Positions 15,126-34,552 of a stretch of DNA of 36,954 nucleotides are shown piece by piece. Each line of letters starts with the position of its first letter. The first letter of the stretch is position 1. Under the pieces are notes generated by a model. That model did no database searches. It had not been told where the DNA came from and was given only the letters and a program-made list of their open reading frames with translations. A program made the translations under genes and the position numbers. Source of the stretch: a virus; IMG/VR virus record IMGVR_UViG_3300004369_000697, positions 1 through 36,954 of that record. One strand, 5' to 3'.

Positions 15126-15126
15126 A

Positions 15127-18091: not shown

Positions 18092-18819
18092 TTTACCATA
18101 TCGTTAGTAATTACTTTGTACATCCCAGCTTCTCTTGAAGACTGTCTTATAGCATCTATCATCAGTTTGTAGCTTTTATAGTCTCTGTATGTTTTATTAG
18201 CTACATACGTTGGAATACATGTCCACCCGACTCCTTCGAACATGAGAATTCTACTCAAGTCGTCGTTGATGTACTTATCTATCTTCTTGAAAATTTTTGA
18301 GCTAAAGGTCGCATAATCTTGTATCTGTAAGAGATAATTAGCACTACTAACACCGTTGAAACTATTAAAGTCTCTCTCAAACTCTAGAGCCTGCCAAGTG
18401 TTCATGACCAGTCTAGCATTTATCCCTTTTTCTCTCATTACATTTACTTCATGCACCAGAGAGTTTACATCAGTGTCGTTCTGAGAGTTAATAGCCACTT
18501 GTAAGTTTTGTACTTTGTAGTAGTCGTCACTAAGGCATAGACATGTTTTTCTTAGAGATTCCATGTTACCTCTAAACTCTATTACTATACCAAATGTTTT
18601 TTCTATTTCTGCTCTAGCAACTTCAACAGTTGGGTTATCCACTTGCCACGCATTGGTTCTGTGCATATTACACAGAGCTTGAACAACTGGAGCGTCTCTT
18701 GTCTGAACGAGCTTTCCCTGCATGTTGAATATTTCATGTCTTCCAGCCAGACATTCTTTATCCTTGAAGAATACGCATTCTTTACAAGAAGTTCTAACCT
18801 CTCTGTGCTTCGATTTCAT
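18088..18819 (-). CDS. GT-like protein with N-terminal cysteine cluster
   Basis: A protein of 243 residues. The N-terminus has CKECVFFKDKEC (C12, C15, C22) and a fourth Cys in ALCNMHR at about residue 49, a set able to hold zinc or an iron-sulfur cluster. From about residue 75 the pattern changes to a GT-A-like beginning: FGIVIEFRGNMESLRKTC, then VQNLQVAINSQ and EKGINARLVMN. No clear DxD is seen. Phage proteins with a CxxC lead and a GT2-like body occur in other glycosyltransferase clusters, as far as I recall. The enzymatic role is uncertain, and a redox or binding role for the Cys cluster cannot be excluded. Confidence 0.4.
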   Translation of the reverse strand: MKSKHREVRTSCKECVFFKDKECLAGRHEIFNMQGKLVQTRDAPVVQALCNMHRTNAWQVDNPTVEVARAEIEKTFGIVIEFRGNMESLRKTCLCLSDDYYKVQNLQVAINSQNDTDVNSLVHEVNVMREKGINARLVMNTWQALEFERDFNSFNGVSSANYLLQIQDYATFSSKIFKKIDKYINDDLSRILMFEGVGWTCIPTYVANKTYRDYKSYKLMIDAIRQSSREAGMYKVITNDMVK

Positions 18820-19210
18820 AATGAACTCCGTTAATATAAGAAGCGATTATTCTTAGTCCACACTGTCTTAGTATATTCATGACTGTCTTCGATGTAAGCA
18901 TACATTTAGAATTATTGATCATTTTTGAAGCAGACTCTTCTTTCATAGTCCCATTAATAATCATTTTTGAGAATACTCGAAGATCCGTTCCTCCAATAAC
19001 CACTCTTCCATGCAGTCTCATTTTGCTAACAATGCTCTGAATAGTACCGACCACTTTTTCGCTATCTACAAGGTCAATTAGATCGTTAGCAAAAATTTCT
19101 TCAAGCTCATTGTCTACGTAGCTGTTTAGGCTTAAACCAAACGCTCCAATCTCTTCCTTTTCGAACCCATCGATAGCCTCTTCACCCTGTTTAACAATGT
19201 GTAGCTTCAT
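18794..19210 (-). CDS. Methyltransferase-like protein lacking a SAM-binding loop
   Basis: A protein of 138 residues. The order 'LEEIFANDLIDLVD', 'SIVSKMRLHGRVVIGGTDL' and a C-terminal strand (GLRIIASYINGVHYEI) resembles motifs IV-VI of class I methyltransferases, where a helix after the SAM site leads to 'xxLxPGGxxxIxxxD'. The GxGxG loop and acidic ribose residue that should precede these are absent, so it looks like the C-terminal half of such an enzyme or a diverged, non-catalytic relative. No frameshift is visible upstream because the frame starts at an ATG coupled to the GT4 gene (ATGA). Similar small proteins occur in phage sugar clusters. The function is unknown. Confidence 0.4.
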   Translation of the reverse strand: MKLHIVKQGEEAIDGFEKEEIGAFGLSLNSYVDNELEEIFANDLIDLVDSEKVVGTIQSIVSKMRLHGRVVIGGTDLRVFSKMIINGTMKEESASKMINNSKCMLTSKTVMNILRQCGLRIIASYINGVHYEIEAQRG

Positions 19211-20193
19211 TTAACGCTCCTGTAGACTGCTTGAAATGTTTGATTCCAATTGTTGATAAATACTTTTTCGGAAAAATCTCTAGTAATAGTCTCTCTAGCT
19301 CTTTCACCCATAGCCCTAGCTTGGGCTGGATTGTCGAGCAGATACTGGATTTTACCCCTAAGCTCGTTCTCGTCGTTACTTATGAAGCCATTAACTCCGT
19401 TTTCAATAACTTCTGGAATACCGCATGTTGCAGTTGTGACAACGGCACATCCACAAGCCATCGCTTCAAGCATTGAGGTTGGCAATGGACTGTGTGTAGA
19501 AGTGTTAAGAAAAATCAGAGATGATCTGTAGATATCTGCTAAATGCTGAATACCATTAGCTGGAGAGGACAGGCCGGGGTTGTCACCAATTAGTAAATAA
19601 TCAAAGCCTTCAACTATTCTTTTCCACCCCTCGTAGTTACAACAATAGTCTCTTTGTGAGAATTGATTGACCACACTTAGCACTTTGAAGTTTCTTGCCC
19701 CCTTCGTGGTGTCAAAAACGTGGGTATCTACAGAGTGTGGGATAACAGAATATGTAGCGGGGCATCTCCATTGGCGTGCTGAAAAGTCAGTGATAAACAC
19801 GTTATGTTCAGAAAAACATTCAGACAATCCCTGTTTTTTTTCCTCTGTCCAATCACTGTTCGGAGTGGTGTGCTCTAAACATAGCAACGGCACTTGCAAG
19901 ACTTGTTGGATTTTTTTTGCTGCTTGATATTGCCCGAATTTGCTTTGTGATAAGATAATATCAATATCTAGCCCGTTGTATACAGTATTGTTGGGTAATG
20001 TATAGTAGTTAGGGGGCTTGCTAGCGAATCTCTCATCCCAAGTTTTCATCTGTTCAGCTTGAAAGGCGTAAAAATTATGACCAGTTTTAGCCATTTGAGA
20101 CTGATATCTTTCGTGAGTGTCAAAAGTTAGAATGTTCAACTTCTGTTTTGGCTCACCAACTCTGGATAATATTTGTGCTGTACGTCTACTCAC
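19207..20193 (-). CDS. GT4-family glycosyltransferase
   Basis: A protein of 328 residues from a GTG at 20193. AAGGAG at 20201-20206 lies seven bases upstream of that codon. A longer frame exists from a TTG at 20220 but has no RBS, so I chose the GTG. The C-terminal domain holds the GT-B donor site: HLADIYRSSLIFLNTSTHSPLPTS (split by a few residues) then MLEAMACGCAVVTT and GIPEVIENGVNGF. The glutamates are those that bind the NDP-sugar in GT4 enzymes. No membrane helix is present. It overlaps the upstream GT4 gene by eight bases. Confidence 0.85.
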   Translation of the reverse strand: MSRRTAQILSRVGEPKQKLNILTFDTHERYQSQMAKTGHNFYAFQAEQMKTWDERFASKPPNYYTLPNNTVYNGLDIDIILSQSKFGQYQAAKKIQQVLQVPLLCLEHTTPNSDWTEEKKQGLSECFSEHNVFITDFSARQWRCPATYSVIPHSVDTHVFDTTKGARNFKVLSVVNQFSQRDYCCNYEGWKRIVEGFDYLLIGDNPGLSSPANGIQHLADIYRSSLIFLNTSTHSPLPTSMLEAMACGCAVVTTATCGIPEVIENGVNGFISNDENELRGKIQYLLDNPAQARAMGERARETITRDFSEKVFINNWNQTFQAVYRSVK

Positions 20194-21295
20194 TGAGAAG
20201 CTCCTTAATTTCCTTGCCAACGCTTTCGTAAGAGAATTCTTCTGCTGTAGCTAATCCAGCTTTTCTGTAAGTATCTGGCTCTCGGTGATCATAGTAATAT
20301 CGCATAGCTTTCATAATTTCTGCTTCACAAGGCTGGAACCACGTCTCTCTTCCAGTAAACATATCTGGAAAAGCCGAGTCTTTTGAGGTGCATACGGATC
20401 TTACTCCGGGAATAAGGGAACCTGTAGTTTTCTCACTAATGTACTCTGTAGGTCCACCAGAATACGAGCAGATGGGTGTGCTTCCAAACGCCATAGCTTC
20501 AAAGGCTGGAATAGACCATGCTTCACCATGAGAAGGTGATACAAAACAATCCGCGTACTGGTGCAGCGACATGAGGTTTTCTTCTGGAGTATGTTCGGCG
20601 ATGATGATATCTCTGATATAGTCTTCTACATTTGGATACATCCTTAGAGAAGTTTTAACTTGTTTGATCATTTGATCAACACGCACATGTAACTGTTCAG
20701 CACTTAAGCCAAACTTGCCTACTTTTAATATCAACGACACTGGCTCGCTCTTGTCAAACTCCGCGTGAAAACATCTTATGATAGATTCAATGTTCTTTCT
20801 ATCGTTGAAATCCCCAATGAAGTAAAACTTAAAAGTCCCATCTGCTTGAGGAATATTCATGGGACTATAGGTCTTTCTATACTTCTCAATATCGTGAGCG
20901 TGAGGAACAACTGTAGTCTTAATTCCTAATTGTTGTAAATTAGCTGCCGTATCACTATTTGACACCCATACTTCATCAACTAAGCTTAGATGATCCACCC
21001 AAGGTAGGCATTTAACATCATTTGTTTCCAGCTCTACATAAGCAATATTCTTATCAAACTTATCAGATCCAATAATGTGATGAGGCAGGACGTGTTGGAT
21101 ACAGATATTACAGTCTGATGGATCGCCCTGCTCTAATTCTAAGACTCTTTTAGGAACTTGAACTGACTTATTAGTTAACTTAATATCCCTGCAAACAACA
21201 TCAATTCCACATCTATCCATCGCTAGGATAAAGTCAGTACTGGCGTTGGACCAGCCCCCACCCTCTTTGTAATGACCAATAAACAATACTTTCAT
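20186..21295 (-). CDS. GT4-family glycosyltransferase
   Basis: A protein of 369 residues, the usual length for GT4. The N-terminal domain starts MKVLFIGHYKEGGGWSNAS, a typical glycine-rich acceptor-domain loop. DFNDRKNIESII at about 190 is the inter-domain region. SHGEAWSIPAFEAMAFG (about 254-270) contains the E-x7-E catalytic/donor motif, followed by SGGPTEYI. These residues predict a retaining transferase that uses an NDP-sugar. It overlaps the next gene by eight bases if that gene starts at its preferred GTG, and the upstream gene by four. Confidence 0.85.
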   Translation of the reverse strand: MKVLFIGHYKEGGGWSNASTDFILAMDRCGIDVVCRDIKLTNKSVQVPKRVLELEQGDPSDCNICIQHVLPHHIIGSDKFDKNIAYVELETNDVKCLPWVDHLSLVDEVWVSNSDTAANLQQLGIKTTVVPHAHDIEKYRKTYSPMNIPQADGTFKFYFIGDFNDRKNIESIIRCFHAEFDKSEPVSLILKVGKFGLSAEQLHVRVDQMIKQVKTSLRMYPNVEDYIRDIIIAEHTPEENLMSLHQYADCFVSPSHGEAWSIPAFEAMAFGSTPICSYSGGPTEYISEKTTGSLIPGVRSVCTSKDSAFPDMFTGRETWFQPCEAEIMKAMRYYYDHREPDTYRKAGLATAEEFSYESVGKEIKELLSE

Positions 21296-22008
21296 ACTTT
21301 GTTTGTCTCCAAATTATCACTTAGTAGGCGGTAACCAGCTTGGTTAAATGAGCCATGAAAACCAAAGGAGTCATAGCTACTTAACACAGAGTGGTCGTAT
21401 GTTTTTTCTTCAATGGGGTGTTCTACAGAGAACTTAGCGGCAAGATCAAGTGGGGCAAATTTAATACGCTGCTTTAATAACGTATGATAGTGTTTCACAC
21501 ATAAAAACCAATCTTCATGTGCGTGATCGTGAAAATCAACGTTTGTTATTGGATCATACACTAATTCCGAGGATTTCTTTAAGAAACGCTTGCTTCTAAG
21601 GGAAAATCCACCATTACCGACCCTGTTCTCGAAACCACACATTTTGCTCCAAGGAGAACCAATGTAGTCGTAATCGAAAAACCGTTGATCCCACTTTCCT
21701 ACATCTATTATAGCTGAATCATGCTGAATATTCAGTAAGTATTTTGTAACTAGGTATTTATGGAGGTTTTTAACCATAAACCTAGAGAATTCGTGAGCCG
21801 TCATAGGTTCTATGTGATGTTGAACAATGCCAAATCTGTTTAAGAGGTTTTTATACCTAAGGCTCTGTTCTGTGGGGCAAATTAGTTTTACAGCACCAAA
21901 TTCACATTGTTTGTGACAGAAGATGAGAGCGTCGATAGTGCGTTGAACAAAATCCTCACCCCATGCCACTCCGACAGTTGTAATATCTGAAAACCCCTTA
22001 CGCGCCAT
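21292..22008 (-). CDS. DUF5672-type putative glycosyltransferase
   Basis: A protein of 238 residues with the signature of DUF5672 proteins: YLLNIQHDSAIID in place of a DxD region, then FFDYDYIGSPWS and VGNGGFSLRSKRFL. HAHEDWFLC a little later holds the acidic pair expected near the active site. DUF5672 proteins are GT-A-like transferases common in polysaccharide clusters of bacteria and of large viruses. The start ATG follows the stop of its neighbour within a short overlap. The acceptor is unknown. Confidence 0.75.
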   Translation of the reverse strand: MARKGFSDITTVGVAWGEDFVQRTIDALIFCHKQCEFGAVKLICPTEQSLRYKNLLNRFGIVQHHIEPMTAHEFSRFMVKNLHKYLVTKYLLNIQHDSAIIDVGKWDQRFFDYDYIGSPWSKMCGFENRVGNGGFSLRSKRFLKKSSELVYDPITNVDFHDHAHEDWFLCVKHYHTLLKQRIKFAPLDLAAKFSVEHPIEEKTYDHSVLSSYDSFGFHGSFNQAGYRLLSDNLETNKV

Positions 22009-23689
22009 TATTCTGTCTTGCCCTCATTACATCACAACGTCTTGTTTCCCACGCATTTATTCTATTGCGTAGTTCAGTCATGTGTCTGTAAGCGAGGTCA
22101 AAACTAAAGGGGTGCTTGTTAGAGCTACCATCGAATGCTGCTGATGATTCATTGTAATACATTCCTCCGGTTGTGCCAGTTGTGTACTTATACATTAAGT
22201 CTCGCGTCAATCTAGACTCAAAATGAGTGTTTAGTTTAGTTGGATCACACAGAACTTTTGTAATTAGCCATCTAGATAAATCTTGGTGCGTAGCATTTTG
22301 ATTGATATTTGCAGGCATAGCCTCTGATTGTGCTACTTTAGGAGGGGATAGCCAAGACTGTTCAATTGGAATAGTATCTGTTTGATCAAAGTAATTTTCC
22401 CATACTTTACCGCTTTTATCCCACTGGTAATGTTCCAAAAACCTCTCTCTTGTTTCTTTCCCCTTATTTTGTCTCTCTTCTTCACTTAGAGATAGGAACT
22501 CAGTAAATAGTTTAGCAGCCAGATCGTTATCGGGCACCGCTCTATAACAACCCGTTTCTAACTCTTTGTACAAAGCTTTTGGTTTTACAGGAATACCACC
22601 AAGTTTACGAACTACGCTTTCCATAGCAGAATAGTCTGTACTCATTACGGGAACAGCACATGCGGCTGCTTCTACTTGGGGGAGTCCGAACCCTTCGCAG
22701 TTGGCGTATTGGACATAGAGGTCGAAGGTATTGATTATGGCTGATAAGTCTTCATAGGACGCTCCGCGCTTCGCGTTAGTGAGCGTGCCATTCCATTTCC
22801 CGGTATAAGGCGATTGAGTCATTGCTCCACGAAAAAGAGAGACGAAAGGTTTGAGCGTGTCACCACAGATGTAAGTGAAGTAGACACGTGAGCTGAGGTT
22901 ATACTGTTGTAGCAGTTCTGGAATGTCCCATCCAAGATCTGGATAAGATGTGTGGCAATACAGGTAGGTGTCTGTTCTTTGAGTGTCATCTAACATCTTT
23001 CTAAAAGCTTCAAACAAATCTGGATACAGTTTACGTCTTTGGTTACGCATAACCGTGCCAATGATTTTGTGGTTTGGATCAATCCCCATCTTAGCTTTAT
23101 GAGCCTTCTTATCTTCAACTGGCTTGTAAGCCGGATGAGCAGACGGGGGAGAGCTACCTAGATAGTTGATTTTGCCGCCTGATTGACGTTCTAAGACACC
23201 TCCAGCCCAATCTGAGTAAGTTAGACAGGCGTCGGCAGACTGGTACGTAGCGATCCACTGACGAGCTTGTGGAGCGGCGTCTACAGTAGGCATGACTACC
23301 CACCTGAAGTAATTACGGAAAGGTGAGCGTTCAGCAAAGTCCAGCATCCAAAAGTCACGGATATCGCACACAAAATCTGGCATGAAGTCAAGACAGACAT
23401 GCTCAAACAAAGCTTCTCCAAACTGATTTGATGGTTTACTTTCATAGTCTTGTAGTTCTTCTTGAGTGGCTTTTGGCTCACAGGTAGTATTGGGCATTAC
23501 GCCGTAGTACTTCCACGGAATGTCCTTGGCTCTTGGATCGTTTCTCTCTCCATAAGAAGACATCTCTGCTAACTCGTACTTTCCTGTACTATGCAGGTAA
23601 TTCAAAGTTTCACGAATGTAAGTAGCATATCCAGTATTCAGGAAAGTAGCTTCTCCACAAAACAACACTCTTTTCTTACGCACTATCAT
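21998..23689 (-). CDS. GT4-family glycosyltransferase with C-terminal extension
   Basis: A protein of 563 residues, about 180 longer than a simple GT4 enzyme. RKKRVLFCGEATFLNTGYATY opens the N-terminal domain, split here at the glycine loop. 'IGTVMRNQRRKLYPDLFEAF' starts the donor domain, and CEGFGLPQVEAAACAVPVM gives the E-x7-E motif. The last 130 residues (after about residue 430) are not part of the GT fold. They contain 'GGMYYNESSAAFDGSSNKHPF' (split) and a basic end (ETRRCDVMRARQ), and their role is unknown. It is the first gene of the glycan cluster and overlaps SSB by four bases (ATGA), so it is translated with replication genes. Confidence 0.85.
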   Translation of the reverse strand: MIVRKKRVLFCGEATFLNTGYATYIRETLNYLHSTGKYELAEMSSYGERNDPRAKDIPWKYYGVMPNTTCEPKATQEELQDYESKPSNQFGEALFEHVCLDFMPDFVCDIRDFWMLDFAERSPFRNYFRWVVMPTVDAAPQARQWIATYQSADACLTYSDWAGGVLERQSGGKINYLGSSPPSAHPAYKPVEDKKAHKAKMGIDPNHKIIGTVMRNQRRKLYPDLFEAFRKMLDDTQRTDTYLYCHTSYPDLGWDIPELLQQYNLSSRVYFTYICGDTLKPFVSLFRGAMTQSPYTGKWNGTLTNAKRGASYEDLSAIINTFDLYVQYANCEGFGLPQVEAAACAVPVMSTDYSAMESVVRKLGGIPVKPKALYKELETGCYRAVPDNDLAAKLFTEFLSLSEEERQNKGKETRERFLEHYQWDKSGKVWENYFDQTDTIPIEQSWLSPPKVAQSEAMPANINQNATHQDLSRWLITKVLCDPTKLNTHFESRLTRDLMYKYTTGTTGGMYYNESSAAFDGSSNKHPFSFDLAYRHMTELRNRINAWETRRCDVMRARQNNGA

Positions 23690-23982
23690 ACCTCATGAAC
23701 GTCAAAGGAATTGATTCTAAAATAGACACTACCATTTTCATCGGTTTTTGCGCTGGCATGGACCGTTACTTTTGATCCTGATTTTGCAATCTTACTAAAA
23801 GCTTCCGCTCCAGAAGACCACACCTCGCAATCCAGCATTGACTCAATTTCGGCGTTAGTGCCGTCAGACTTCTGTTTTCTAAATTGATACACGGCTAAAG
23901 AGAACTCGGCTACGGGTTCTTGGTTTTCATAGCTCATCACAATATCACCGTCTACGTATCCAGTGATTACACAAATATTCAT
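23686..23982 (-). CDS. ssb: Single-stranded DNA-binding protein (short, OB-fold)
   Basis: A protein of 98 residues with the SSB OB-fold order: VITGYVDGD, VAEFSLAVYQFRKQ, MLDCEVWSSGAEAFSKIAKSG, SKVTVHASAKTDENG and VYFRINSFDVHEV. 'F-LAV' followed by 'DCEVW' and 'A---K-G--V-V' is the core of bacterial SSB. It is much shorter than E. coli SSB (178) and ends straight after the OB fold, so it lacks the Gly/Pro-rich linker and the acidic DDDIPF-type tip that recruits partner proteins. GGAG lies about six bases before the ATG, in the only sizeable gap (42 bases) of the left half of this operon. It should coat single strands at the phage replication fork. Confidence 0.85.
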   Translation of the reverse strand: MNICVITGYVDGDIVMSYENQEPVAEFSLAVYQFRKQKSDGTNAEIESMLDCEVWSSGAEAFSKIAKSGSKVTVHASAKTDENGSVYFRINSFDVHEV

Positions 23983-24024: not shown

Positions 24025-25587
24025 CTATATTTCATGAATTTTATCCACCAACAGTGATCCTTCTCCACGTTTTACTTCTCCGTGAAACAGTAAATTATTT
24101 CCTTCGTATAAGAGACACGAATACTGCTCCCTCACTTTTGGAAAGACGATAACGCTGTCTAATGTTCCAGTTTCGTCTTCAATGGTTAGAAAACTCATTA
24201 GCTCTCCAGCAGACTTTCCCTTTTTTGTCTTATGATGATTCACACGGTACACGTTGCCAGCTACTGAGATGTTTGATCCAAACTTGCCGTCAACTATCTC
24301 CTTGCAGCTACTATTTGATGTAAATACTGTTTCAGATGTTTCAAGTTTTGACATAGATATAGGACATCCAAGCAGTGCAATTTCTGACTCAATAACCCAC
24401 TGTGGATCGTCTACAAGTTCATAGGGTGGATTATCAAGAAAATGAATCTCGTTTTTGATCTTATTCTCTCTGCTGACAGTATTAGTACCGCCACCTTCTT
24501 TTTTAGTGGGAGCCAAGTCTACTAAGCAGTCTTTTAGAGTCTTCCATTTTCTCTTGGGATATTGTTCTATTGCCCAAGCAAGTTCGTTCTTATTGAGAAC
24601 TCTAAATGTATCATATTGAAACTGTGCAGTGTTTCTATTAACACCTGTTTCTTTTGTGGTAAAGAAACCAACAGAGCACAATGGGTCAAAACCGCTCTTA
24701 GTACACTTACTGGAAACAAACAGTAGTATCTCTAGCCAAGTCAATTTTCCGGGAGGTTTACCTAATTCAGCAGAACCATCTACGATAGCCCTACAAGTCT
24801 TATCTCCGTATATATTGCCCATCCCCTTAACGCTTTTTACGCCAAATAAGATATTATCACCACTGCGTGAATAATCTTCAACCCAATTGTTAATTCTGCA
24901 CATAGAACAGTTAATACCATGCATTTTAGCGTCTGCTACTAGTTCATACACTTCTTGGTGCGGTTTTGGAGAATCTTTTGAGTGCCGTAGGTAAGAAACA
25001 AAGAATTCTATGGGATGATTTGCTTTGTAGTAGGCACTTGTGAACGAATTAAACGCATATGATACAGAATGGGATTTATTGAACGAATATCTAGCACTCT
25101 TCTCAATCCAACCGAAGATTTCATCCCCCTCATCCCTTGTCACTACTTTATTTTTCTCGCAACCATCTAGAAACTTAACCTTGATCTTAGCCATAAGGTC
25201 AGCCTTCTTCTTGCCGATAGCCTTTCTCAAGTCGTCGGCCTCAATTAGGTCAAACCCCGCTAAATCTTGAGCTATACGCATAGCCTGCTCTTGGTACACA
25301 AGAACGCCATAGGTGTTTTTAAGGATAGGCTCTAGGGATGGATGTAAATAAACAGTGGTATCCTTACCGTTTTTTCTGTCAACAAAGTGTTGAGATAATG
25401 ACTTACCATCCATCATAGCATGAAGACTTCCCGGTCTAATGATAGCAATAAGAGCGGATAATTCTTCTATGGAGCTTGGAGATACCTTCTTTGCCCAACT
25501 CTTTCCCAAGTTACTCTCTAGCTGGAACACACCTTTTGTACGCCCCTCTTGTAGTAATGCCCAAGTTTTATCATCGAGTAAATTCAT
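24025..25587 (-). CDS. dnaE: DNA polymerase III alpha, C-terminal half (split gene)
   Basis: A protein of 520 residues that matches the part of Pol III alpha beginning just after the third catalytic Asp. It opens with LLDDKTWALLQEG and GVFQLES at 19-25, then RPGSLHAMM, LVYQEQAMRIAQDLAGF, ADDLRKAIGKKK and SARYSFNKSHS (169-174 hold FNKSHS). A helix-hairpin-helix-like region and a C-terminal OB fold (about 430-520) follow. The tau-binding domain of E. coli alpha is not visible, and I see no clear internal clamp-binding pentapeptide. The ATG overlaps the stop of the exonuclease gene (ATGA) with GGAGA upstream. Together with the 26267-27850 product it gives about 1047 residues (E. coli: 1160). It must pair with the N-terminal half to work. 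Confidence 0.85.
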   Translation of the reverse strand: MNLLDDKTWALLQEGRTKGVFQLESNLGKSWAKKVSPSSIEELSALIAIIRPGSLHAMMDGKSLSQHFVDRKNGKDTTVYLHPSLEPILKNTYGVLVYQEQAMRIAQDLAGFDLIEADDLRKAIGKKKADLMAKIKVKFLDGCEKNKVVTRDEGDEIFGWIEKSARYSFNKSHSVSYAFNSFTSAYYKANHPIEFFVSYLRHSKDSPKPHQEVYELVADAKMHGINCSMCRINNWVEDYSRSGDNILFGVKSVKGMGNIYGDKTCRAIVDGSAELGKPPGKLTWLEILLFVSSKCTKSGFDPLCSVGFFTTKETGVNRNTAQFQYDTFRVLNKNELAWAIEQYPKRKWKTLKDCLVDLAPTKKEGGGTNTVSRENKIKNEIHFLDNPPYELVDDPQWVIESEIALLGCPISMSKLETSETVFTSNSSCKEIVDGKFGSNISVAGNVYRVNHHKTKKGKSAGELMSFLTIEDETGTLDSVIVFPKVREQYSCLLYEGNNLLFHGEVKRGEGSLLVDKIHEI

Positions 25588-26264
25588 TTGATAAACAAGT
25601 CTCCATTAGCGAAACAGTTTTTTAACTTTAGGTTTCTGTAGACCGCTCTGTGAGTCTTGAGCATTTTAATCATGATATTAGCCGTGTCTTTTACGTCCTG
25701 CATAGCATCATGAGCGTTTTCATGTGAAAGGCCGACGTGCTGTCGCATTGCATCCATATTGATCTTTTTTATTTCTGGATCATTCTCCGTCCAAATCCAC
25801 ATATTATCCATAAGATCAAGCTTGAATACTTTACTGAACAGGGTTTGTTGGCCACTGTTTTTATCATATGGGCCAAATTGTTGACATAACCGTTCTACTA
25901 TAGGCATGTCGTAGCCAATAATGTTGTATCCACATGGAATAGGAGCGAAGAATGGAGTCTTCTTCCAATTATATTGGTTTACGAAGTTGGTAAACTTCTT
26001 CCATACAGCAGGTAGTTCTGGAGCAGCGTCAATTTCTTCTCGGGTGTGTCCAGTTACTTTTAACGCTCCCTCTTCTAAAGGGGCTAAACCCTTGGCTATA
26101 GCCTTATCATCATCAATCTCAGCACGGATCATAGACTGGAATTCACCCTTCTTGCGAAGGGTTCTTCCGTCTAATGCAATGGCTGCTAACTGTGTTGGTT
26201 GACAAGTTTTTGGGTCTCTTCCCCCTGTCTCAAAGTCAAAGCAAACGAGGTCTCTGTTAGCCAT
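25584..26264 (-). CDS. dnaQ: DnaQ-like DEDDh 3'-5' exonuclease (proofreading subunit)
   Basis: A protein of 226 residues with all DEDDh motifs: Exo I CFDFETGG (D10, E12), Exo II GYNIIGYDMP (D119) and Exo III AHDAMQDVKD (H185, D190). This is the fold of the Pol III epsilon subunit. QQTLF at 139-143 resembles the beta-clamp-binding pentapeptide (QL-LF type) and lies in a loop after Exo II. The gene sits exactly between the two halves of Pol III alpha, two bases after the first and overlapping the second by four, so it is expected to be made with them in similar amounts. It most likely supplies proofreading for this split polymerase. Confidence 0.85.
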   Translation of the reverse strand: MANRDLVCFDFETGGRDPKTCQPTQLAAIALDGRTLRKKGEFQSMIRAEIDDDKAIAKGLAPLEEGALKVTGHTREEIDAAPELPAVWKKFTNFVNQYNWKKTPFFAPIPCGYNIIGYDMPIVERLCQQFGPYDKNSGQQTLFSKVFKLDLMDNMWIWTENDPEIKKINMDAMRQHVGLSHENAHDAMQDVKDTANIMIKMLKTHRAVYRNLKLKNCFANGDLFIK

Positions 26265-26266
26265 AT

Positions 26267-27850
26267 TTATCTATCTCCAATCAATGCTTCAATACACATA
26301 GTTTTATCCAAGAAATTAATCGACAAAAGGTCGAACTTAACGTGCCCCATAGCTTCCAACGCTGACATCTCAAGGGCGGCAATTGGGTTCCCTTCCTTAT
26401 CTATAGTCATGGGGCACACTTCCTTCAACGGTTTTTGAGAAATTACAATACCCGCAGCGTGTTTTCCTTGTGATTTGAATGTTCCCTCAATCGAAATCGC
26501 TGTTTTGAATAGTTCTGCATGTGGGCCACAAATCTCATCATTCTCAATATAGCAATAGTCTTTCAACCCCTTGCTTCCAAATTCCAACGCCCACCTGATG
26601 ATAGAACGATCTTCCTCATCCATCATCTGTAGCTCGTCAGAGATATCGTCCTCGTCAGGAATGAACTTTGTAATCTCATTCACTTCGGCGTGATGGCAAG
26701 ACTCGGTTACACGAGCCACTTCTTTGATCGCCCCCCTTCCCTGTAATCTACTAAGCGTGATCATTTGACTCACCCGATCTTCTCCGTATCTTCTTTTTAC
26801 ATAGTCAATAATCTCTACCCTATGTCTTTTTGGCAAGTCCATATCAATATCAGGCAGAGAAACATGTCCATCAGCAAGTCTTCCAGCATTGAAGAACCTT
26901 TCAAACAGTAAGTCGTATTGTATCGGATCAATACCAGTAATTCCAATAAGATATGATATTAAACAACCGGCACAGCTCCCTCTTCCTAAACCAGTCATCC
27001 ATCCTTGACTTTTGGCGTAATTGATAATATCCTGTACAATGAGGAAGTAGCCGAATAGCTGAGCTTTCTCAATGACGGCAAACTCTTTGTTGAATCTATC
27101 CAGATACTCTTGCTTCTTCTCTCGTGTGAAGTTGTTACCATTAATAAACTGCCTCCACCCATCTCGACACATTTCCTTTAAATACGCTTCTTCTGTTTCT
27201 CCATTAGGAGTTGGAAATGTGGGGAGCATAGGTTCGTGGAGAATTTCAAAGTGTTCAACTGAGTCAATTACACTCTTTAGAATAGACATACCTTCTGGAT
27301 CATTAATCGTAGCAGCTTGTTCTTTGGTAGGCACATAAAAATCATCTGACAAAAAGAATTCTCTGCACCACATATTCTCACCACCCGCAGCTAATTTTTT
27401 AGCCTTACGCATCGTGGTCTTCATTTCTGAAGCCAGTAGGATACGGTGAAGCTCAGCTTGTGACTGCTCGACATAGCAGTTCTGACGCAGGGCTGGGCCT
27501 TGGTGAGTGACTTTGATCAAGTTGCCGTTGGCAATCATGTCTTGGGTCAACTCTAGGTCTTCCTCTCCGTCTCTATCAACAGATGAGACTACTTGGATGA
27601 GTTCAGACCACCCTTTAGAGTTTCTTGCGTAAAGTTGATAGCCATCGAATGAGCACCCGAGTATTGGCGTAATATTCCGTTTTTGACATTCTTGTGAGAA
27701 TGCCACTGTTCCAGCGAGAGTTTTGTAATCAGCGATACCGGCAGCGGCAAAAGACTCTTTATTACATTTTTCTGATAATTCATTTGGTTTTGAGAAGCCC
27801 TTAAGCAAACTGAAATGAGTTCTGTTATTCAGTGGAAACCACTGTGTCAT
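26267..27850 (-). CDS. dnaE: DNA polymerase III alpha, N-terminal half with catalytic residues (split gene)
   Basis: A protein of 527 residues. I chose the ATG at 27850 because GGGAG (27856-27860) lies five bases upstream. An in-frame ATG at 27868 has no RBS. The N-terminal PHP domain is recognisable (THFSLL, then GIADYKTLAG and PILGCSF) but lacks the first His pair, and TDH reads ADY, so it should be inactive. The palm carries GRGSCAG at about 289-295 and PDIDMD with D336 and D338, KHAAGIVIS at about 463-471, and KFDLL with the third catalytic D507. The protein stops 20 residues after that Asp, where ordinary DnaE continues without a break. The exonuclease gene follows after two bases. Confidence 0.85.
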   Translation of the reverse strand: MTQWFPLNNRTHFSLLKGFSKPNELSEKCNKESFAAAGIADYKTLAGTVAFSQECQKRNITPILGCSFDGYQLYARNSKGWSELIQVVSSVDRDGEEDLELTQDMIANGNLIKVTHQGPALRQNCYVEQSQAELHRILLASEMKTTMRKAKKLAAGGENMWCREFFLSDDFYVPTKEQAATINDPEGMSILKSVIDSVEHFEILHEPMLPTFPTPNGETEEAYLKEMCRDGWRQFINGNNFTREKKQEYLDRFNKEFAVIEKAQLFGYFLIVQDIINYAKSQGWMTGLGRGSCAGCLISYLIGITGIDPIQYDLLFERFFNAGRLADGHVSLPDIDMDLPKRHRVEIIDYVKRRYGEDRVSQMITLSRLQGRGAIKEVARVTESCHHAEVNEITKFIPDEDDISDELQMMDEEDRSIIRWALEFGSKGLKDYCYIENDEICGPHAELFKTAISIEGTFKSQGKHAAGIVISQKPLKEVCPMTIDKEGNPIAALEMSALEAMGHVKFDLLSINFLDKTMCIEALIGDR

Positions 27851-27851
27851 A

Positions 27852-28238
27852 TTATCTCCCGAAGGCATATCTTAGGTAGTTGTTTATAGTAGAGTTCAAT
27901 TTTTCAAAAAATCCTGCGGGTTTCGTAAAATTTTTAATAGGTGGATTTGTCTTTAACCATTCAGTAGAGTTCAACCTGTGTATAAACCTAGTCGTTTGAG
28001 TTGCCCTTTCTGGAAAAGCTAGATTGTGGCAGACAGTATCAATAGGGTCACTAAGTGACCAAAGTCCGGTACTACTTGATCTTGTGGCGTACCGATCTCT
28101 TTGATTATGTAGTAATGTGTTCGCCCCGGCGAAACTTTGTGTGGGGGTTGACCAATCTATCAAAACACCAGACACATGAAATTGTAAATGATCTGGCAGT
28201 ATCACATGAGCCAAAGCTGAACTGTCTAATTCAATCAT
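27852..28238 (-). CDS. Protein of unknown function (128 aa) beside the polymerase gene
   Basis: A protein of 128 residues, coupled to the gene before it (ATGA) and ending two bases before the preferred start of the Pol III alpha N-terminal half. The N-terminal half contains hydrophobic strand-like segments (LAHVILPDHLQFHVSGVLIDW), the middle is rich in Ser and Arg, and the end is basic with a likely helix (FFEKLNSTINNYLRYAFGR). There is no CxxC pair, P-loop or signal peptide. I do not recognise the family. Two short reading frames and the DUF1501 gene lie next to it, so the group may work together. Confidence 0.5.
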   Translation of the reverse strand: MIELDSSALAHVILPDHLQFHVSGVLIDWSTPTQSFAGANTLLHNQRDRYATRSSSTGLWSLSDPIDTVCHNLAFPERATQTTRFIHRLNSTEWLKTNPPIKNFTKPAGFFEKLNSTINNYLRYAFGR

Positions 28239-28498
28239 TTACGAAACTCAATATCTAGAAGTCTATCAATAGGCGATCTAGAGAATGTGTTTTCTCTAAA
28301 GTTGGGAACCAACTCTGTTTCAGATAACTTCCCACTTAGCAATTGGATCGAGTCCAGCACGGCTTTCTTATTTCCATTCCGGTATTTCAGCGGTTCGTTC
28401 TGCACCCATATTTGTCCTAAGTCCAATACCCCTGATCCCCTTCCGTACTCTGAATGAGGAACATCTGGCATAAAAAACACTTCAAGTCCTTTAATCAT
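28235..28498 (-). CDS. Small protein of unknown function (87 aa) after the DUF1501 gene
   Basis: A protein of 87 residues, coupled at both ends by ATGA overlaps (28235-28238 and 28495-28498). The coupling and the absence of any other use for this stretch make it a likely real gene. It begins MIKGLEVFFMPDVPHSEYG, has a mixed charged middle and ends with a likely helix (SPIDRLLDIEFRK). No domain, metal site or membrane helix is visible. Its place directly after the DUF1501 gene suggests a partner, but that is not proven. Confidence 0.5.
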   Translation of the reverse strand: MIKGLEVFFMPDVPHSEYGRGSGVLDLGQIWVQNEPLKYRNGNKKAVLDSIQLLSGKLSETELVPNFRENTFSRSPIDRLLDIEFRK

Positions 28499-29709
28499 AC
28501 TTCCCCCTTACTTTTAATAACACGGCCACCATTACCTAGACTCATTGGCCTTCCATTTTTGCTCATGTAGAGCTTTTCTGGATTAATTCCCATTGCAGTG
28601 TATCCTGTAACCAAGAGGTCGGCAGCAGTGAACCCTCTGCCGTCACGAATCTCTGTACCATCTTTATTCGTAGAGCCAACTGCCATTCCTCCATTGAGCA
28701 GACCTCCCGCCACAACAGATGACCAAGTCTTGCTCCAGTGATCTCTTCCTGCATTTTGATTAATCCTTGGTGTTCGGCCAAACTCGCCCATCATAATAAT
28801 AGCAGTATTATCCCACATATCCAAGCGTTTTAAATCGGCAAAGAGAGTTGAGACAACCTTGTCCAATTCTGGCAGCTTCTGTTCAAGTGTGTCATGAGTC
28901 GACACGTGTAAGTCCCAGCCTCCAAAACTTACCTCGACAAAAGCAACGCCTGTTTGCAGCAAACGTCTTCCCATTAGAACAGATTGTCCAAATTGAGATG
29001 CTCCGTAGGCATCTCTGACGTTCTGTGGTTCGTGTTCAACTTTAAGAGATTCTAGTTGATCACTGGTAGTTAACCTGATAGCTCTATCAACTAGCTTCTT
29101 GTGATCATTAGGCAGGTCTCCACGCCGAGACTTGGAAAATTCTTCTTCTACCAATTTAAGCAGATTGATACGTTCTTGAGTGATTGGTTTTCCAACGTTT
29201 GGAATTTCTCCATTGCTATTTATGCGAAATGGGTTATACTCTGCTCCTAAGTAACCACCTCCATAGTTACTATTCCCAATAGAGCAGTAAGCTGGTAAAT
29301 CTAAATCTGGTCGATCTGGACCTAGTTCTCTTGCTACGATAGAACCAATAGATGGATGAACAATGGAAGGGTTGGGTACATAGCCGGTGTGAAGATAATA
29401 GGAGCCGCGTTGATGATCAGCTTCTCGCGTAGACATGGTGCGGACAATTGAGAAGTCTTTACCCATTTTTGCTAACAAGGGCATTTTCTCGCATATTTCA
29501 AAGTCGCCAGTCGTAGAGATAGGCTTGAATGGACCTCCATTCTTGGAATCTGGCTTCAAGTCCCACATATCAATGGTTGGTGGACCTCCAGATAGCCAAA
29601 TAAGCATCATATTCTTCTGATCTGGCTTCGGTTTGGCAGTATCTCCAAAGGTGGGCCTGAGCATAAAAACAGATGCTAAGGCACTCATAAACTGTCTTCT
29701 GTTCGTCAT
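28495..29709 (-). CDS. DUF1501 protein with twin-arginine export signal
   Basis: A protein of 404 residues that follows the DUF1501 pattern throughout. LIWLSGGPPTIDMWDLKP at 36-53 (GG at 41-42, D47, D50), READHQRGSYYLHTG around H99, a His at about 118, GGWDLH at 263-268, MGEFGRTPRIN at 307-317 and GRDHW at 321-325 are the conserved sites of this alkaline-phosphatase/sulfatase-superfamily group. The start is MTNRRQFMSALASVF, a twin-arginine signal (R4-R5, hydrophobic stretch to about residue 18), so it should be folded in the cytoplasm and exported. DUF1501 is abundant in Planctomycetota; I recall few reports in phages. GGAG lies just before the ATG. Its real substrate is unknown. Confidence 0.85.
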   Translation of the reverse strand: MTNRRQFMSALASVFMLRPTFGDTAKPKPDQKNMMLIWLSGGPPTIDMWDLKPDSKNGGPFKPISTTGDFEICEKMPLLAKMGKDFSIVRTMSTREADHQRGSYYLHTGYVPNPSIVHPSIGSIVARELGPDRPDLDLPAYCSIGNSNYGGGYLGAEYNPFRINSNGEIPNVGKPITQERINLLKLVEEEFSKSRRGDLPNDHKKLVDRAIRLTTSDQLESLKVEHEPQNVRDAYGASQFGQSVLMGRRLLQTGVAFVEVSFGGWDLHVSTHDTLEQKLPELDKVVSTLFADLKRLDMWDNTAIIMMGEFGRTPRINQNAGRDHWSKTWSSVVAGGLLNGGMAVGSTNKDGTEIRDGRGFTAADLLVTGYTAMGINPEKLYMSKNGRPMSLGNGGRVIKSKGEV

Positions 29710-30287: not shown

Positions 30288-31322
30288 CTATCCCGGTGCT
30301 GAGTAGTAGCCAATGCTGAAACCTTTGTCCGTCAGATTTTCAACTGCTGAATCCATGCCTTTAGTCTTAATGTGATCTTGAACGTGATTGCACATTCTTG
30401 TTTCAGTGCCCGGCCACTTAGTTTTGTAGAAGTGACACAAACGAGAGCATTTCCAGTTTGGTTTTGGGTCGTCTCTGTAGGGCAAGATTTTCGGATTAGA
30501 GCTGTTTTTTATTTCTTTAAATCTTTGTTCCAGCATTCCAAGAAATTTATCTTTGTCAGAGTCGTCAAAGCATAGACTAAATGGACCTCCGTCTCGCACA
30601 AAGAAGATCGTCATGATCGTATGCTTGAATTGAGGAAACATGTGAGATATAGCATAGTAATAGAGCAGTAGCTGGGGGTCGTTTTGAAGATACTCTAAGT
30701 CTTTCGGCTTTCCCGTCGCCCAATTCTTTCGCTGTCCAGTTTTCCAGTCGATTACTTCTATTGTATCATCACTTACGGTGGTTACAAGGTCAATCGTCCC
30801 TTTTATCGCAAGTTTTCCCTTAACAGGATTACCTTCCGTGTCTTTACCCTCAAACTCAGCCCAAGGTTCGTCAATTACTATATCAAAATGCGGCTCTGGA
30901 TACAGAATGTCCCTATTTCTAGGGTCAAACATTCCATCACTCCAATTAAGAATCTGATCTGTAAGAGTTGAAACTTCTTTGATGTGACGCGGCTGCCACT
31001 TATGTATTGATGTGGAACGATAGTGATCGGTACTTCTTTTTATAAGTGATTTTAGAAGCTTTGCACTTCGTAATTCATTTTTATGACACTCTACTAATCC
31101 AACGGCATCATCGGTAAACGATAGTTTAACTCTTTGGCCTTTCAAGTCTTGCTCACACTTCTTCAGGTTAGCTAAACATTCTAAGACTTTATGAACCATA
31201 GTTCCTAGTTCAGCCTTTTGCCCACTTGGGCTTTGGTGACCTAGAACATAAGTCATAAAATACTGCATCTCACAGAAGTCCCACTGATTGTAGCTAGAGC
31301 TTCTAATGTACTCACATAGCAT
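30288..31322 (-). CDS. RecB/Cas4-like PD-(D/E)XK nuclease with a four-Cys (iron-sulfur) site
   Basis: A protein of 344 residues with the Cas4/AddB-type nuclease core: GTMVHKVLE at 40-48 (H44), IKGTIDLV at 173-180 (D178) and EVIDWKTG at 189-196 (D192, K194). One Cys lies early (C17) and three near the end (C292, C296, C311), the spacing of the iron-sulfur-containing RecB-like nucleases. There is no helicase domain. In phages such exonucleases help to resect DNA ends for recombination. Context with a RecA-like recombinase and possible annealing protein agrees. The gap to the kinase gene upstream is 29 bases. Confidence 0.8.
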   Translation of the reverse strand: MLCEYIRSSSYNQWDFCEMQYFMTYVLGHQSPSGQKAELGTMVHKVLECLANLKKCEQDLKGQRVKLSFTDDAVGLVECHKNELRSAKLLKSLIKRSTDHYRSTSIHKWQPRHIKEVSTLTDQILNWSDGMFDPRNRDILYPEPHFDIVIDEPWAEFEGKDTEGNPVKGKLAIKGTIDLVTTVSDDTIEVIDWKTGQRKNWATGKPKDLEYLQNDPQLLLYYYAISHMFPQFKHTIMTIFFVRDGGPFSLCFDDSDKDKFLGMLEQRFKEIKNSSNPKILPYRDDPKPNWKCSRLCHFYKTKWPGTETRMCNHVQDHIKTKGMDSAVENLTDKGFSIGYYSAPG

Positions 31323-31351
31323 GTGTTGATCTTTCTGCTGTAGAGTATGAT

Positions 31352-32092
31352 TTAAGTTATTACTCTTGAGTAAATTCTATTCAGACTAGAACATAAGTCT
31401 TGAATATCAGAGTTTGAGTTGTCAATCACGTGTGTGAACTTATTGAAGTCAAAGTTCTCCGGGTCTAAAGCAGTTTCACTTTCGTGACTATCTTGATATG
31501 GATCTCTAGTGAGTCTAACTACTTCACCACCAGCACTCAGAATGGCATCTACTTCTCCGGGGAATCTCACGTCTGCAATTACGGCAAACTTGCTACCTTC
31601 TCCTTCTATACGCTTGATAGTATTGTTTACCCATACGTTGTGGAATATTTTTCTCATAACGTTGGTGCCAAAGTGCTGCATAAACTCTCTGCCTGTCATA
31701 CACCCCTCTTTGCGCAGGCCCGGCATGTCTTTCCATTGGTATTGTGTAAGTTCGTTTTTTTGCTCGTCTGTACCGTAAATCTTGCGGTGATCAATTTCAA
31801 ACAGATCAACACATGCCCATTTTAAAGTGTCTGCAAAGCTATACATTTTTATGTACGGAAATAGGTTGTCTTCTGCATAGGTCAGAAATCCCCCGTCTCT
31901 TCTTGTTGGGTCTAAAATCCCCCAATCCACCACTCCATTGGCGTTGGATGTTTGAATAATCAATTGGCCTTCTTCACTAATCTTGAAGTCCTTCACTCCT
32001 CCAATAGCCTTTAACATCATGCCATGTAGCATGTTAGCAGAAGTGCCTTTGCCAGATTGTTTTTTTCCAGAGAAACCGATTATGTGCGTCAT
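31352..32092 (-). CDS. Deoxynucleoside monophosphate kinase
   Basis: A protein of 246 residues with an N-terminal P-loop GFSGKKQSGKGT at 6-17 (G9, G14, K15, T17), a later LRKEGCMTGREFMQHFGTNVM (split at the G), and VIADVRFPGEVDAI, a signature of the T4 gp1-like dNMP kinase group. VIDNSNSDIQDL at the end is also typical. The known enzymes raise dNMPs to dNDPs for phage DNA synthesis. The start overlaps the primase stop by one base (TAATG). It has no obvious regulatory domain. A shikimate- or adenylate-kinase-like assignment is less likely because of the ADVRFP motif. Confidence 0.8.
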   Translation of the reverse strand: MTHIIGFSGKKQSGKGTSANMLHGMMLKAIGGVKDFKISEEGQLIIQTSNANGVVDWGILDPTRRDGGFLTYAEDNLFPYIKMYSFADTLKWACVDLFEIDHRKIYGTDEQKNELTQYQWKDMPGLRKEGCMTGREFMQHFGTNVMRKIFHNVWVNNTIKRIEGEGSKFAVIADVRFPGEVDAILSAGGEVVRLTRDPYQDSHESETALDPENFDFNKFTHVIDNSNSDIQDLCSSLNRIYSRVIT

Positions 32093-33075
32093 TAGTACAT
32101 TCCCTCTATTTGGTTTAATATAGTCTTCTTAACTTTATCAATAGGTAAAGTTCCTATGTCTTTTGATTTCATCGATGGGAAGATTAATTCAAACGAGTCA
32201 AATAACTTCCTTTGAATCGCTCTTTTTGATTCACGTCCAGCTTGATCGTTGTCAGTCAATACTACAAGCCTTTTCACATTGTATTCCTTGAGCAGTTGTA
32301 TTTGGTAATAACTGATATCTTTACCCATAATAGATACAGTGTTCTCGGCTCCAGCCTCATGCATTCTCCATACGTCCCCCGGCCCCTCTACTAAGATCAT
32401 AGTTTGATTCTTGATCTTTTTAACAGCCCTATGCATATTGTAAAGAAATAAAGTCTTTTTGAAACCTTTAGAGTTTACAAATTTAGGGTACATAAACTTA
32501 GTGTTCCCCCTTGCTGTGTAACCCACTATGACCCCTTCTTCACATTGAACTGGAATAATCGTTCTTTTAAACATTGCGTGACCATGACTTTTACAGTCCT
32601 GTACCATAAACGTTTTCATAGTTTCCGCTTTATACCCCCTATCGACGTAATATGTAGAGCTTCCTATGGTAGGAACATCAAGAGTAAAACGCTTCCATTC
32701 ACGTGGAGGCATTACAAACTCTCGTTCTTCGGTTGGTACGTCTGAGATATCTATGTCATACAAGTCTTTTAGATATTGGATAGTAGCTGGAAACGAAACA
32801 GGAGTGCCCTCATTGATTGATAGAACACCTCTTACAAAACCCAACACCCCCTTGTACTCTTCGTGACAGCTTCTCGTCCAACATCTCCACACCCCTTTGG
32901 ACAAAAGGATTGAGCTACTTCTAGGTTCATCACTAAAATGTATTGGACATGGCATAAAAACTGATCCGTTGTAATAATAGTGATCAATACCTAGATCATT
33001 CAAGAGTTCTTCAGAATGTTCACAAATATGACTACTAATTGCAGACAAATCACTCTGTGGTATCATCATTGCCAT
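32092..33075 (-). CDS. dnaG: DnaG-type primase (zinc finger and TOPRIM domain)
   Basis: A protein of 327 residues from the ATG at 33075, which has GAGG nine bases upstream. An ATG at 33084 has no spacing to that site. The zinc-binding part is CPIH (C43, H46) and WRCWTRSCH (C65, C70). The TOPRIM core is MILVEGPGDVWRM (E230) and RLVVLTDNDQAG (D275, D277), the metal site for primer synthesis. The helicase-interacting C-terminal domain of bacterial DnaG is absent, which is normal in phage primases. It is coded directly after DnaB with a short overlap, so the two probably work as one complex. Confidence 0.85.
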   Translation of the reverse strand: MAMMIPQSDLSAISSHICEHSEELLNDLGIDHYYYNGSVFMPCPIHFSDEPRSSSILLSKGVWRCWTRSCHEEYKGVLGFVRGVLSINEGTPVSFPATIQYLKDLYDIDISDVPTEEREFVMPPREWKRFTLDVPTIGSSTYYVDRGYKAETMKTFMVQDCKSHGHAMFKRTIIPVQCEEGVIVGYTARGNTKFMYPKFVNSKGFKKTLFLYNMHRAVKKIKNQTMILVEGPGDVWRMHEAGAENTVSIMGKDISYYQIQLLKEYNVKRLVVLTDNDQAGRESKRAIQRKLFDSFELIFPSMKSKDIGTLPIDKVKKTILNQIEGMY

Positions 33076-34552
33076 TAACAACATCCTCTTTAAACGGAAG
33101 TTCTGCGCCCTCTATCGCCCCACTAATGTGAGGATTAGCCTTGATTTCATCTCTGGTTCTTAGTTCTCTAATTCTAGCATGAGACCCCTCCATGTTTATA
33201 TTTATGTAGTTGCCATCCTCCATTCCAGCTCCATGTCTGCAAACCAGTGGGACCAGCTTCCTGTTTCCGCCCTGTGGACCGTCCTCAGCAAGCTCCTCTG
33301 GAGACTTGAGCTTGAAGATGCTAAATGAGGTGCATAGCCAAATAAGTCTGTCAGAGCCGCTCACAGCGTCTGTAGACTCCTTGGTAATGCCGTCTCTATT
33401 TAATTGCACGAAAGCCAAACATGCAAAATCGTACTTAACAGACAGGTTGTGCAAAGCTGTAATCTGAAATCCTAGAGCTTGGTACTCTTGAACATTGTTA
33501 GTTACTGAGGAAGCCGACATTAGCTTAAGATAGTCAAAGACTACTACGCAATCATTCGTTCTGCCAGTTTCATCCAAGCCAACATCGTGAATAACCCAGC
33601 GTTTGATAATATTGAGAATTTTTTCAATTGGTTGACCAGCAACACTAGCATATGTATAAGACATCCCCTTAATAGTCTCTACCGCATTGTAAACTGCTAT
33701 AGATTGATCTTCATCACTATGAAAAGATCCCGTAGCAATATCATTGATAGGAACTCCACTCAAGTTAGCTAATATCCTGTTAAAATGGTCTTCCTTAGAC
33801 ATCTCTGTGTCGAGCATGAGCACTGGAATCCCCTGCTTAGACACGTTAATAGCTACGTTATCTCCAAAGACGCTCTTACCTACCTTAGGTCGAGCCGATA
33901 CTAAGTCGACACATTTCCTACGTAGTCCACCACCGATAGCGGCGTCGAATCTAGGTAGGCCGGTTGGGATACCAATTTGGTCACACTGATTATCCTTAAG
34001 AAACTCCATATACTCATCAATACCTTCTTTGATAAGTTCTGTCTGTTTCGATGGATCATCTTCTTGTAGCAAGTCAACTAATGGCGTTTCAGCAATAGCT
34101 AAAATTTCATCAATGCTCTCATCTCCACGTAGATTATTTACATCAATGGAGATTCGTTTCGATATCTTGAGTATTTTTCTAGCGAACTCAAACTTTTTTA
34201 TTTGAGCAGCAAAGTTCATTAGGTTGTTTTGTCTAACATGCCCCTTCATTAGGGACTCAATGTGACTAGCGGCTCCATTTGTTGTCAGGTGATTTTCAAT
34301 ACCTAACTGACTTGCGGCAGACATAACCGTTGGTAAGTCAACTTGCACACAAGTTTGAAAGGCTTTTTCTAGAGCCTTATAGATGAACTTGTTTCTGCTG
34401 CTCGAAAAAGTGTCTGCTGTAATTATATCACAAAGCTCAACGTATACATCGATTCCATGTTCAAACATTGCTGTTAATATAGCGTTTTCAGCCGCCATAT
34501 CTGATAGTTTATCTACTGCCGACACACCGGCTGCATCTGTGGTATTTTCCAT
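33050..34552 (-). CDS. dnaB: DnaB-type replicative helicase
   Basis: A protein of 500 residues, close to the 471 of E. coli DnaB. The N-terminal helical domain begins AAENAILTAMFEHG. The RecA-fold motor has Walker A SARPKVGKS (219-227, K226), LMLDTEMSKEDHFNRI with E250, and Walker B VVVFDYLKLM with D340. AFVQLNRD about 50 residues later is the DnaB H4/sensor motif. It should unwind the phage fork and recruit the primase encoded next. It overlaps the zinc-ribbon gene by 44 bases. A shorter start at the internal MAAENA is possible. Confidence 0.85.
   Translation of the reverse strand: MENTTDAAGVSAVDKLSDMAAENAILTAMFEHGIDVYVELCDIITADTFSSSRNKFIYKALEKAFQTCVQVDLPTVMSAASQLGIENHLTTNGAASHIESLMKGHVRQNNLMNFAAQIKKFEFARKILKISKRISIDVNNLRGDESIDEILAIAETPLVDLLQEDDPSKQTELIKEGIDEYMEFLKDNQCDQIGIPTGLPRFDAAIGGGLRRKCVDLVSARPKVGKSVFGDNVAINVSKQGIPVLMLDTEMSKEDHFNRILANLSGVPINDIATGSFHSDEDQSIAVYNAVETIKGMSYTYASVAGQPIEKILNIIKRWVIHDVGLDETGRTNDCVVVFDYLKLMSASSVTNNVQEYQALGFQITALHNLSVKYDFACLAFVQLNRDGITKESTDAVSGSDRLIWLCTSFSIFKLKSPEELAEDGPQGGNRKLVPLVCRHGAGMEDGNYININMEGSHARIRELRTRDEIKANPHISGAIEGAELPFKEDVVNGNDDTTE

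Follow-up and report, generated by a model that had tools for sequence, protein, structure and literature searches.

We analysed the virus record IMGVR_UViG_3300004369_000697 of IMG/VR, a linear fragment of 36,954 bases that is called the window below, and in particular its genes for the alpha subunit of DNA polymerase III (Pol III). Normally a single chain of about 1,100 residues, Pol III alpha is coded in the window in two genes, here termed alphaN and alphaC, and a gene for a DEDDh 3'-5' exonuclease lies between them (nt, nucleotide; ORF, open reading frame):

26267..27850, minus strand: alphaN, the N-terminal part of a family C Pol III alpha (PF02811, PF07733)
26267-27868, minus strand: alphaN with the alternative ORF start at 27868
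26265..26266, minus strand: 2-nt gap from the alphaN stop to the exonuclease start (read from the sequence)
25584..26264, minus strand: DEDDh 3'-5' exonuclease, 226 amino acids (PF00929, PHROG 192)
25584..25587, minus strand: ATGA-type 4-nt overlap of the exonuclease stop with the alphaC start (read from the sequence)
24025..25587, minus strand: alphaC, the remaining fingers through the C-terminal OB fold (PF17657)

Domain content and break point of the split alpha subunit

An earlier sequence-only reading of the window had described a Pol III alpha split around a 226-residue DEDDh exonuclease gene, spaced by two bases on one side and overlapping by four on the other; its coordinates, gene content and spacing were all confirmed. 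Each of the three genes has its own start codon with a GGAG-type sequence resembling a ribosome site upstream, which for alphaC is GGAG. GGGAG lies just 5' of the alphaN ATG at 27850 and no such site is found ahead of 27868; therefore, 27850 is the likelier start. Judged from the 4-nt overlap, translation of alphaC is likely coupled to that of the exonuclease.

Searches of both halves and the exonuclease with hidden Markov models, proposed in that reading as a check, gave Pfam and PHROG assignments. AlphaN matched PHP (7e-13) and DNA_pol3_alpha (2e-68), alphaC matched DNA_pol3_finger (8e-46), and PHROG family 405 (DNA polymerase) spans the two, with alphaN ending at profile position 605 and alphaC starting at 628. 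In comparison with solved alphas, the alignment of alphaN runs up to residue 637 of Taq, and that of alphaC starts at 650 (591 in E. coli) and picks up again at E. coli residues 981-1055, in the OB fold; at the break, only about 12 linker residues of the Taq and E. coli proteins have no counterpart in either half. These alignment ends place the cut after the palm strand with the third catalytic Asp and before the fingers motif TxGVFQLES. AlphaN thus contains a truncated, degenerate PHP domain, the palm with all of its catalytic Asp residues (D334, D336 and D507, numbered from ATG 27850) and the thumb, and its C-terminal end is the palm-to-fingers linker, where alphaC also begins. The earlier assignment of PHP and the three Asp to the N-terminal half, and of the rest of the fingers and the OB fold to the C-terminal half, was borne out by these matches.

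Each half was modelled as a single chain with AlphaFold, and the predicted local distance difference test (pLDDT) values were 90.7 for alphaN and 91.0 for alphaC. The top Foldseek match of alphaN was Taq alpha (2hpi, E=1e-33), and alphaC matched the alphas of Taq, M. tuberculosis and E. coli; the models of the two halves map to complementary parts of the same bacterial Pol III alphas. The pair classifies as DnaE-type family C, closer to DnaE structures (E of about 1e-33 for alphaN and about 1e-22 for alphaC) than to PolC (6e-18 and 5e-6).

The exonuclease matched RNase_T (PF00929, 5e-12) and carries the DEDDh active-site residues D10, E12, D119, H185 and D190. Its best phage family is PHROG 192, 'DNA polymerase exonuclease subunit', and NCBIfam gave weak matches to several families, none of them near the cut-off. 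It is most likely a dedicated 3'-5' proofreading subunit.

Conservation of the gene order in a virus clade

The first search for relatives returned 7 contigs, all with the order alphaN, exonuclease, alphaC, SSB and glycosyltransferase. Profile searches of viral and genome contigs then placed the exonuclease between the halves in 157 loci that hold both, and a deeper search found the same order in 77 of 77 complete loci. After identical exonuclease genes had been dropped, the order was kept in 175 loci from many samples, on contigs of up to 223 kb; the searches returned the best 80 loci and favoured near relatives, so that 175 is a lower bound and the loci stop short of the clade's outer edge. 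The exonuclease was never lost from the split in these loci. Every complete locus has two ORFs in place of the one polypeptide of a DnaE-type alpha, and no fused alpha was found in the loci of the clade. Loci of other types comprised two phage comparators with a fused alpha (L010 and L011), one Cellulophaga comparator with a split alpha (L009) and DnaE genes of bacteria on genome contigs. In a tree of 69 alphas, those split around the exonuclease formed one group with a support of 100 in the Shimodaira-Hasegawa-like approximate likelihood-ratio test. We conclude that the order is real, old and conserved, that it is fixed across a large clade of viruses, and that it is almost surely functional. 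The sequence-only reading had named related phage genomes as the place to look for it.

In a comparison of diverse members, 41 of 41 had the three polymerase Asp and all five DEDDh residues unchanged. For one close pair, L002 and L004, nonsynonymous (dN) and synonymous (dS) divergences were 0.058 and 1.15 in alphaN, 0.041 and 2.18 in the exonuclease, and 0.021 and 0.71 in alphaC, indicating purifying selection on all three genes in this pair; synonymous sites are saturated between the window and its nearest relative, L012. The PHP domain, which had been called inactive-looking, is indeed shortened in the subclade of the window (26267-27850) and its site is eroded, but this is not true of the whole clade. 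Deep members keep intact-looking metal motifs HxH, TDH, GHLGS and PDAHY (alignment A7), and the degenerate PHP is therefore a derived state of the window's subclade. The CGCxF motif at the head of alphaC is likewise kept in deep members (L007, L080 and L171-L174) and gone in that subclade.

A full-length alpha elsewhere in the genome was one of the refuting findings named in the earlier reading. However, 19 virus contigs of 71-167 kb have one PF07733 match each, the split alphaN, and the 7 first relatives have no extra one. Neither PolA nor PolB (PF00136) was found in 13 long contigs. All of these contigs, the 19 included, are fragments by IMG/VR classing, so that absence there is not proof. 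A second full-length alpha, PolA or PolB was rejected, as none was found in the long relatives. Exactly one RNase_T protein was present in 13 of the 13 long contigs, positioned, where compared, as the exonuclease of the window. No viral DnaN-type clamp was found in 20 records. The search for a T4 gp23-type capsid gave no matches and its controls were silent too, hence it was uninformative.

Against 50,697 phage records the exonuclease gave only weak matches, in 4 records, of which the two inspected (MA9V-3 and Rctr197k) have no annotated alpha around it. Isolated phages as close relatives were rejected, since the exonuclease led to none and all alpha matches were below 60% identity. The record L336 (OQ572403, 'Pseudomonas phage Y1', unverified) has an alpha that groups with bacterial Pseudomonadota DnaE, and may therefore contain bacterial DNA. 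Five contigs with the alphaN-exonuclease-alphaC order, L170 (VFHP01000007.1) and L171, L172, L173 and L174, were binned into SAR202, Alphaproteobacteria, Flavobacteriales and Lokiarchaeota metagenome-assembled genomes (MAGs); they are probably virus contigs in these bins. The SAR202 MAG into which L170 was binned codes an alpha of its own elsewhere, in a 1,071-residue frame on a different contig.

The split genes of the window are flanked by the following features:

23686..23982, minus strand: SSB (PF00436), order kept in 7 relatives
21998..23689, minus strand: glycosyltransferase adjoining SSB (PF00534), order kept in 7 relatives
30288..34552, minus strand: RecB/Cas4-like exonuclease, dNMP kinase, TOPRIM primase and DnaB helicase (NCBIfam, PHROGs)

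The upstream replication-gene neighbourhood is also found in L004, L007 and L008. Beside the replication genes, about a dozen glycosyltransferase, epimerase and methyltransferase-like genes lie in a row (10921-23689), and ORFs for homing or HNH-type nucleases are present at 9718-10488 and 35412-35831 (PHROG 559 and 9084). The window codes for a DUF1501 protein (28495-29709), and two relatives for DUF1559 proteins (L282:3581-4564 and L317:3794-4867). Both families are typical of Planctomycetota, which offers a possible lead to a host in that phylum.

A probable two-chain replicase and the competing explanations

We consider it probable (about 0.78) that these genes code for a working two-polypeptide replicase, whose halves pair non-covalently and whose dedicated proofreader is the exonuclease. 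The halves would be translated side by side from one message. AlphaN, with PHP, the palm and the catalytic Asp residues, would pair with alphaC non-covalently via the palm-fingers interface, and we infer that a DnaE-type alpha with polymerase activity is thereby reassembled. The exonuclease, its translation coupled to that of both halves, would supply 3'-5' proofreading, and the clamp would be taken from the host, as no DnaN-type clamp of the virus was found. The sequences support the two-chain enzyme well; the proofreading role is likely.

Several observations weigh against this interpretation, chiefly in respect of the exonuclease. By sequence, exonuclease I (E=1e-8) is nearest to it among solved structures, closer than epsilon, and the name DnaQ-like used in the earlier reading stands only at the superfamily level. 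Many relatives have additional genes beside the exonuclease in the split, among them uracil-DNA glycosylase, methyltransferases, DUF1559 and others. Endonuclease_7-type ORFs make up 14 of 57 inserts and sit between the exonuclease and alphaC in many relatives, and deep members have small ORFs of 60-80 residues between alphaN and the exonuclease. A gene of the uracil-DNA glycosylase superfamily (PF03167) occupies the latter position in L268-L270, L274 and L277. Since other genes share the split, position alone is no proof of a partnership between the exonuclease and alpha.

Such inserts raise the possibility, compatible with a two-chain replicase, that a homing endonuclease once cracked alpha at the linker and was replaced by the exonuclease, whose position would then be only historical and devoid of functional meaning. 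We hold this account of the origin tentatively, at less than even odds. The Endonuclease_7-type ORFs fit it, and so does L006, where an HNH-like ORF separates alphaN from the exonuclease. In one thinned tree (support 99) the clade had as its sister Rossellomorea phage phiT1, whose alpha is broken at the same linker around a 49-aa ORF, and the split may therefore predate the exonuclease. However, the placement of phiT1 was not resolved in the fuller tree of 69 alphas, and no locus was seen whose split held only an endonuclease, as an intermediate would. Moreover, the exonuclease is the sole constant element of the split in the 175 loci, which suggests that its position is kept by selection.

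A more demanding form of the two-chain replicase is an obligate three-chain core, in which the exonuclease would bridge alphaN and alphaC during assembly and no polymerase would form without its proofreader; we regard this as unlikely. Rather improbable, too, is that the exonuclease is an independent, exonuclease I-like nuclease of single-stranded DNA that merely belongs to the replication operon, with alpha proofreading by its PHP domain or not at all. The similarity to exonuclease I, the unrelated genes in the split of relatives and the PHP metal motifs retained in deep members would agree with such a role. On the other side, this is the sole RNase_T protein in the 13 long contigs, it never leaves the split, its best phage family is a polymerase exonuclease subunit, and the eroded PHP site in the window's subclade would leave no other proofreader.

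Joining of the halves into a one-chain alpha by an undetected split intein or a trans-spliced intron is very improbable. No intein blocks were found in the alphaN tails or alphaC heads at the palm-fingers break; the last conserved palm motif lies at most about 20 residues from the end of alphaN, and the first fingers motif at most about 15 residues from the start of alphaC. In every locus both halves abut conserved polymerase sequence, and the gaps are often of a few bases. The gaps of +2 and -4 nt in the window leave no room for an intron, and Rfam detected none in the window. What makes joining conceivable is that split inteins occur elsewhere in alpha in three relatives. In L008 (7417-11050) alphaC contains two inteins: one follows RPG, and the other is split, at NK|SHS, its halves being separated by a nuclease ORF (9036-9923). 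Alpha is thus coded in three genes plus inteins, and the neighbouring glycosyltransferase of this relative (11638-14406) also carries an intein. In L067 (1570-4337) and L069 (2337-4308) a split intein interrupts alphaN at GPGRG|S, where IntN ends its ORF and IntC ends in ...VHN before SAAGC. As the relatives carry inteins at other breaks of alpha and none at the palm-fingers break, non-covalent assembly of the halves is what we infer.

A further interruption of alphaN was found in L313 (3385-4478), where about 1.1 kb lies just before the catalytic PDID region, and likewise in L171, L314, L316 and L322. No Rfam intron and no obvious intein were found in it in L171 and L313, and a group I intron was rejected there for want of an Rfam match. 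L320 has a frame break at the same site, without the catalytic stretch.

An assembly error, a frameshift or a decaying pseudogene is next to impossible: nothing favours it beyond the window being a metagenome-derived fragment, the same break with the same intervening gene in 175 loci from many samples excludes chance and the false stop that the sequence-only reading had allowed for, and purifying selection and invariant catalytic sites speak against decay.

Relation to known split polymerases

In PolC of Gram-positive bacteria, a single chain, the exonuclease lies within PHP. PolC resembles the clade in that an exonuclease is coded inside the polymerase region, whereas in the clade the chains are separate and the fold is DnaE-like. 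In cyanobacteria DnaE is also coded in two genes, and a split intein, located further downstream than the break of the clade, rejoins the halves. Split inteins are noted in PMC3919608. N and C fragments of the intein lie at the cyanobacterial break, in contrast to that of the clade, which has no intein remnant; the earlier reading had correctly set the two apart. Fractured genes that combine split inteins with a homing endonuclease were reportedly described by Dassa et al. in 2009. PolB of phage MIJ3 is an example (PMC6892783). As in the clade, a nuclease gene separates two parts of a gene; in fractured genes each part bears an intein half and the nuclease is a homing endonuclease, whereas the palm-fingers break has a DEDDh exonuclease and no intein. 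L008 does show the fractured-gene pattern, but at another site of alpha.

Among phages, group 2.2 jumbo phages have a minimal split Pol III alpha of N- and C-terminal proteins (Iyer et al. 2021, PMC7824862), which, like those of the clade, are expected to rebuild one enzyme. They have minimal catalytic modules, distant genes and a family B polymerase (PMC7824862), whereas in the clade alpha is domain-complete, its genes lie next to one another and the 13 long contigs gave no PolB match. Cellulophaga phages phiST and phi13:1 (gp38-gp39) also code alpha in two adjacent genes, but the break is just before the catalytic PDID and nothing lies between the halves. In phiT1 (PV767480), too, alpha is split at the palm-fingers linker into adjacent genes (gp20 and gp18); it differs in having the 49-aa ORF instead of the exonuclease, and its sequence is distant. 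No publication on the phiT1 split was found in the literature searched. PhiT1 gives no proof of a single origin, as its long branch shifts between trees.

Split phage Pol III alphas were thus already known, and of the novelty suggested by the sequence-only reading it is the exonuclease inside the split that stands, as this was found only in the clade described here. No paper describing the order was found, in a literature search that missed most subscription papers. The order can serve to mark an uncultured virus group that has no member among the 50,697 phage records at the sensitivity used. A stable two-chain alpha with a probable proofreader in the gap is a natural test of the modularity of Pol III alpha, and the palm-fingers break is a natural split site for building two-part polymerases. 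Finally, the clade documents how genes for replication come apart and remain in pieces.

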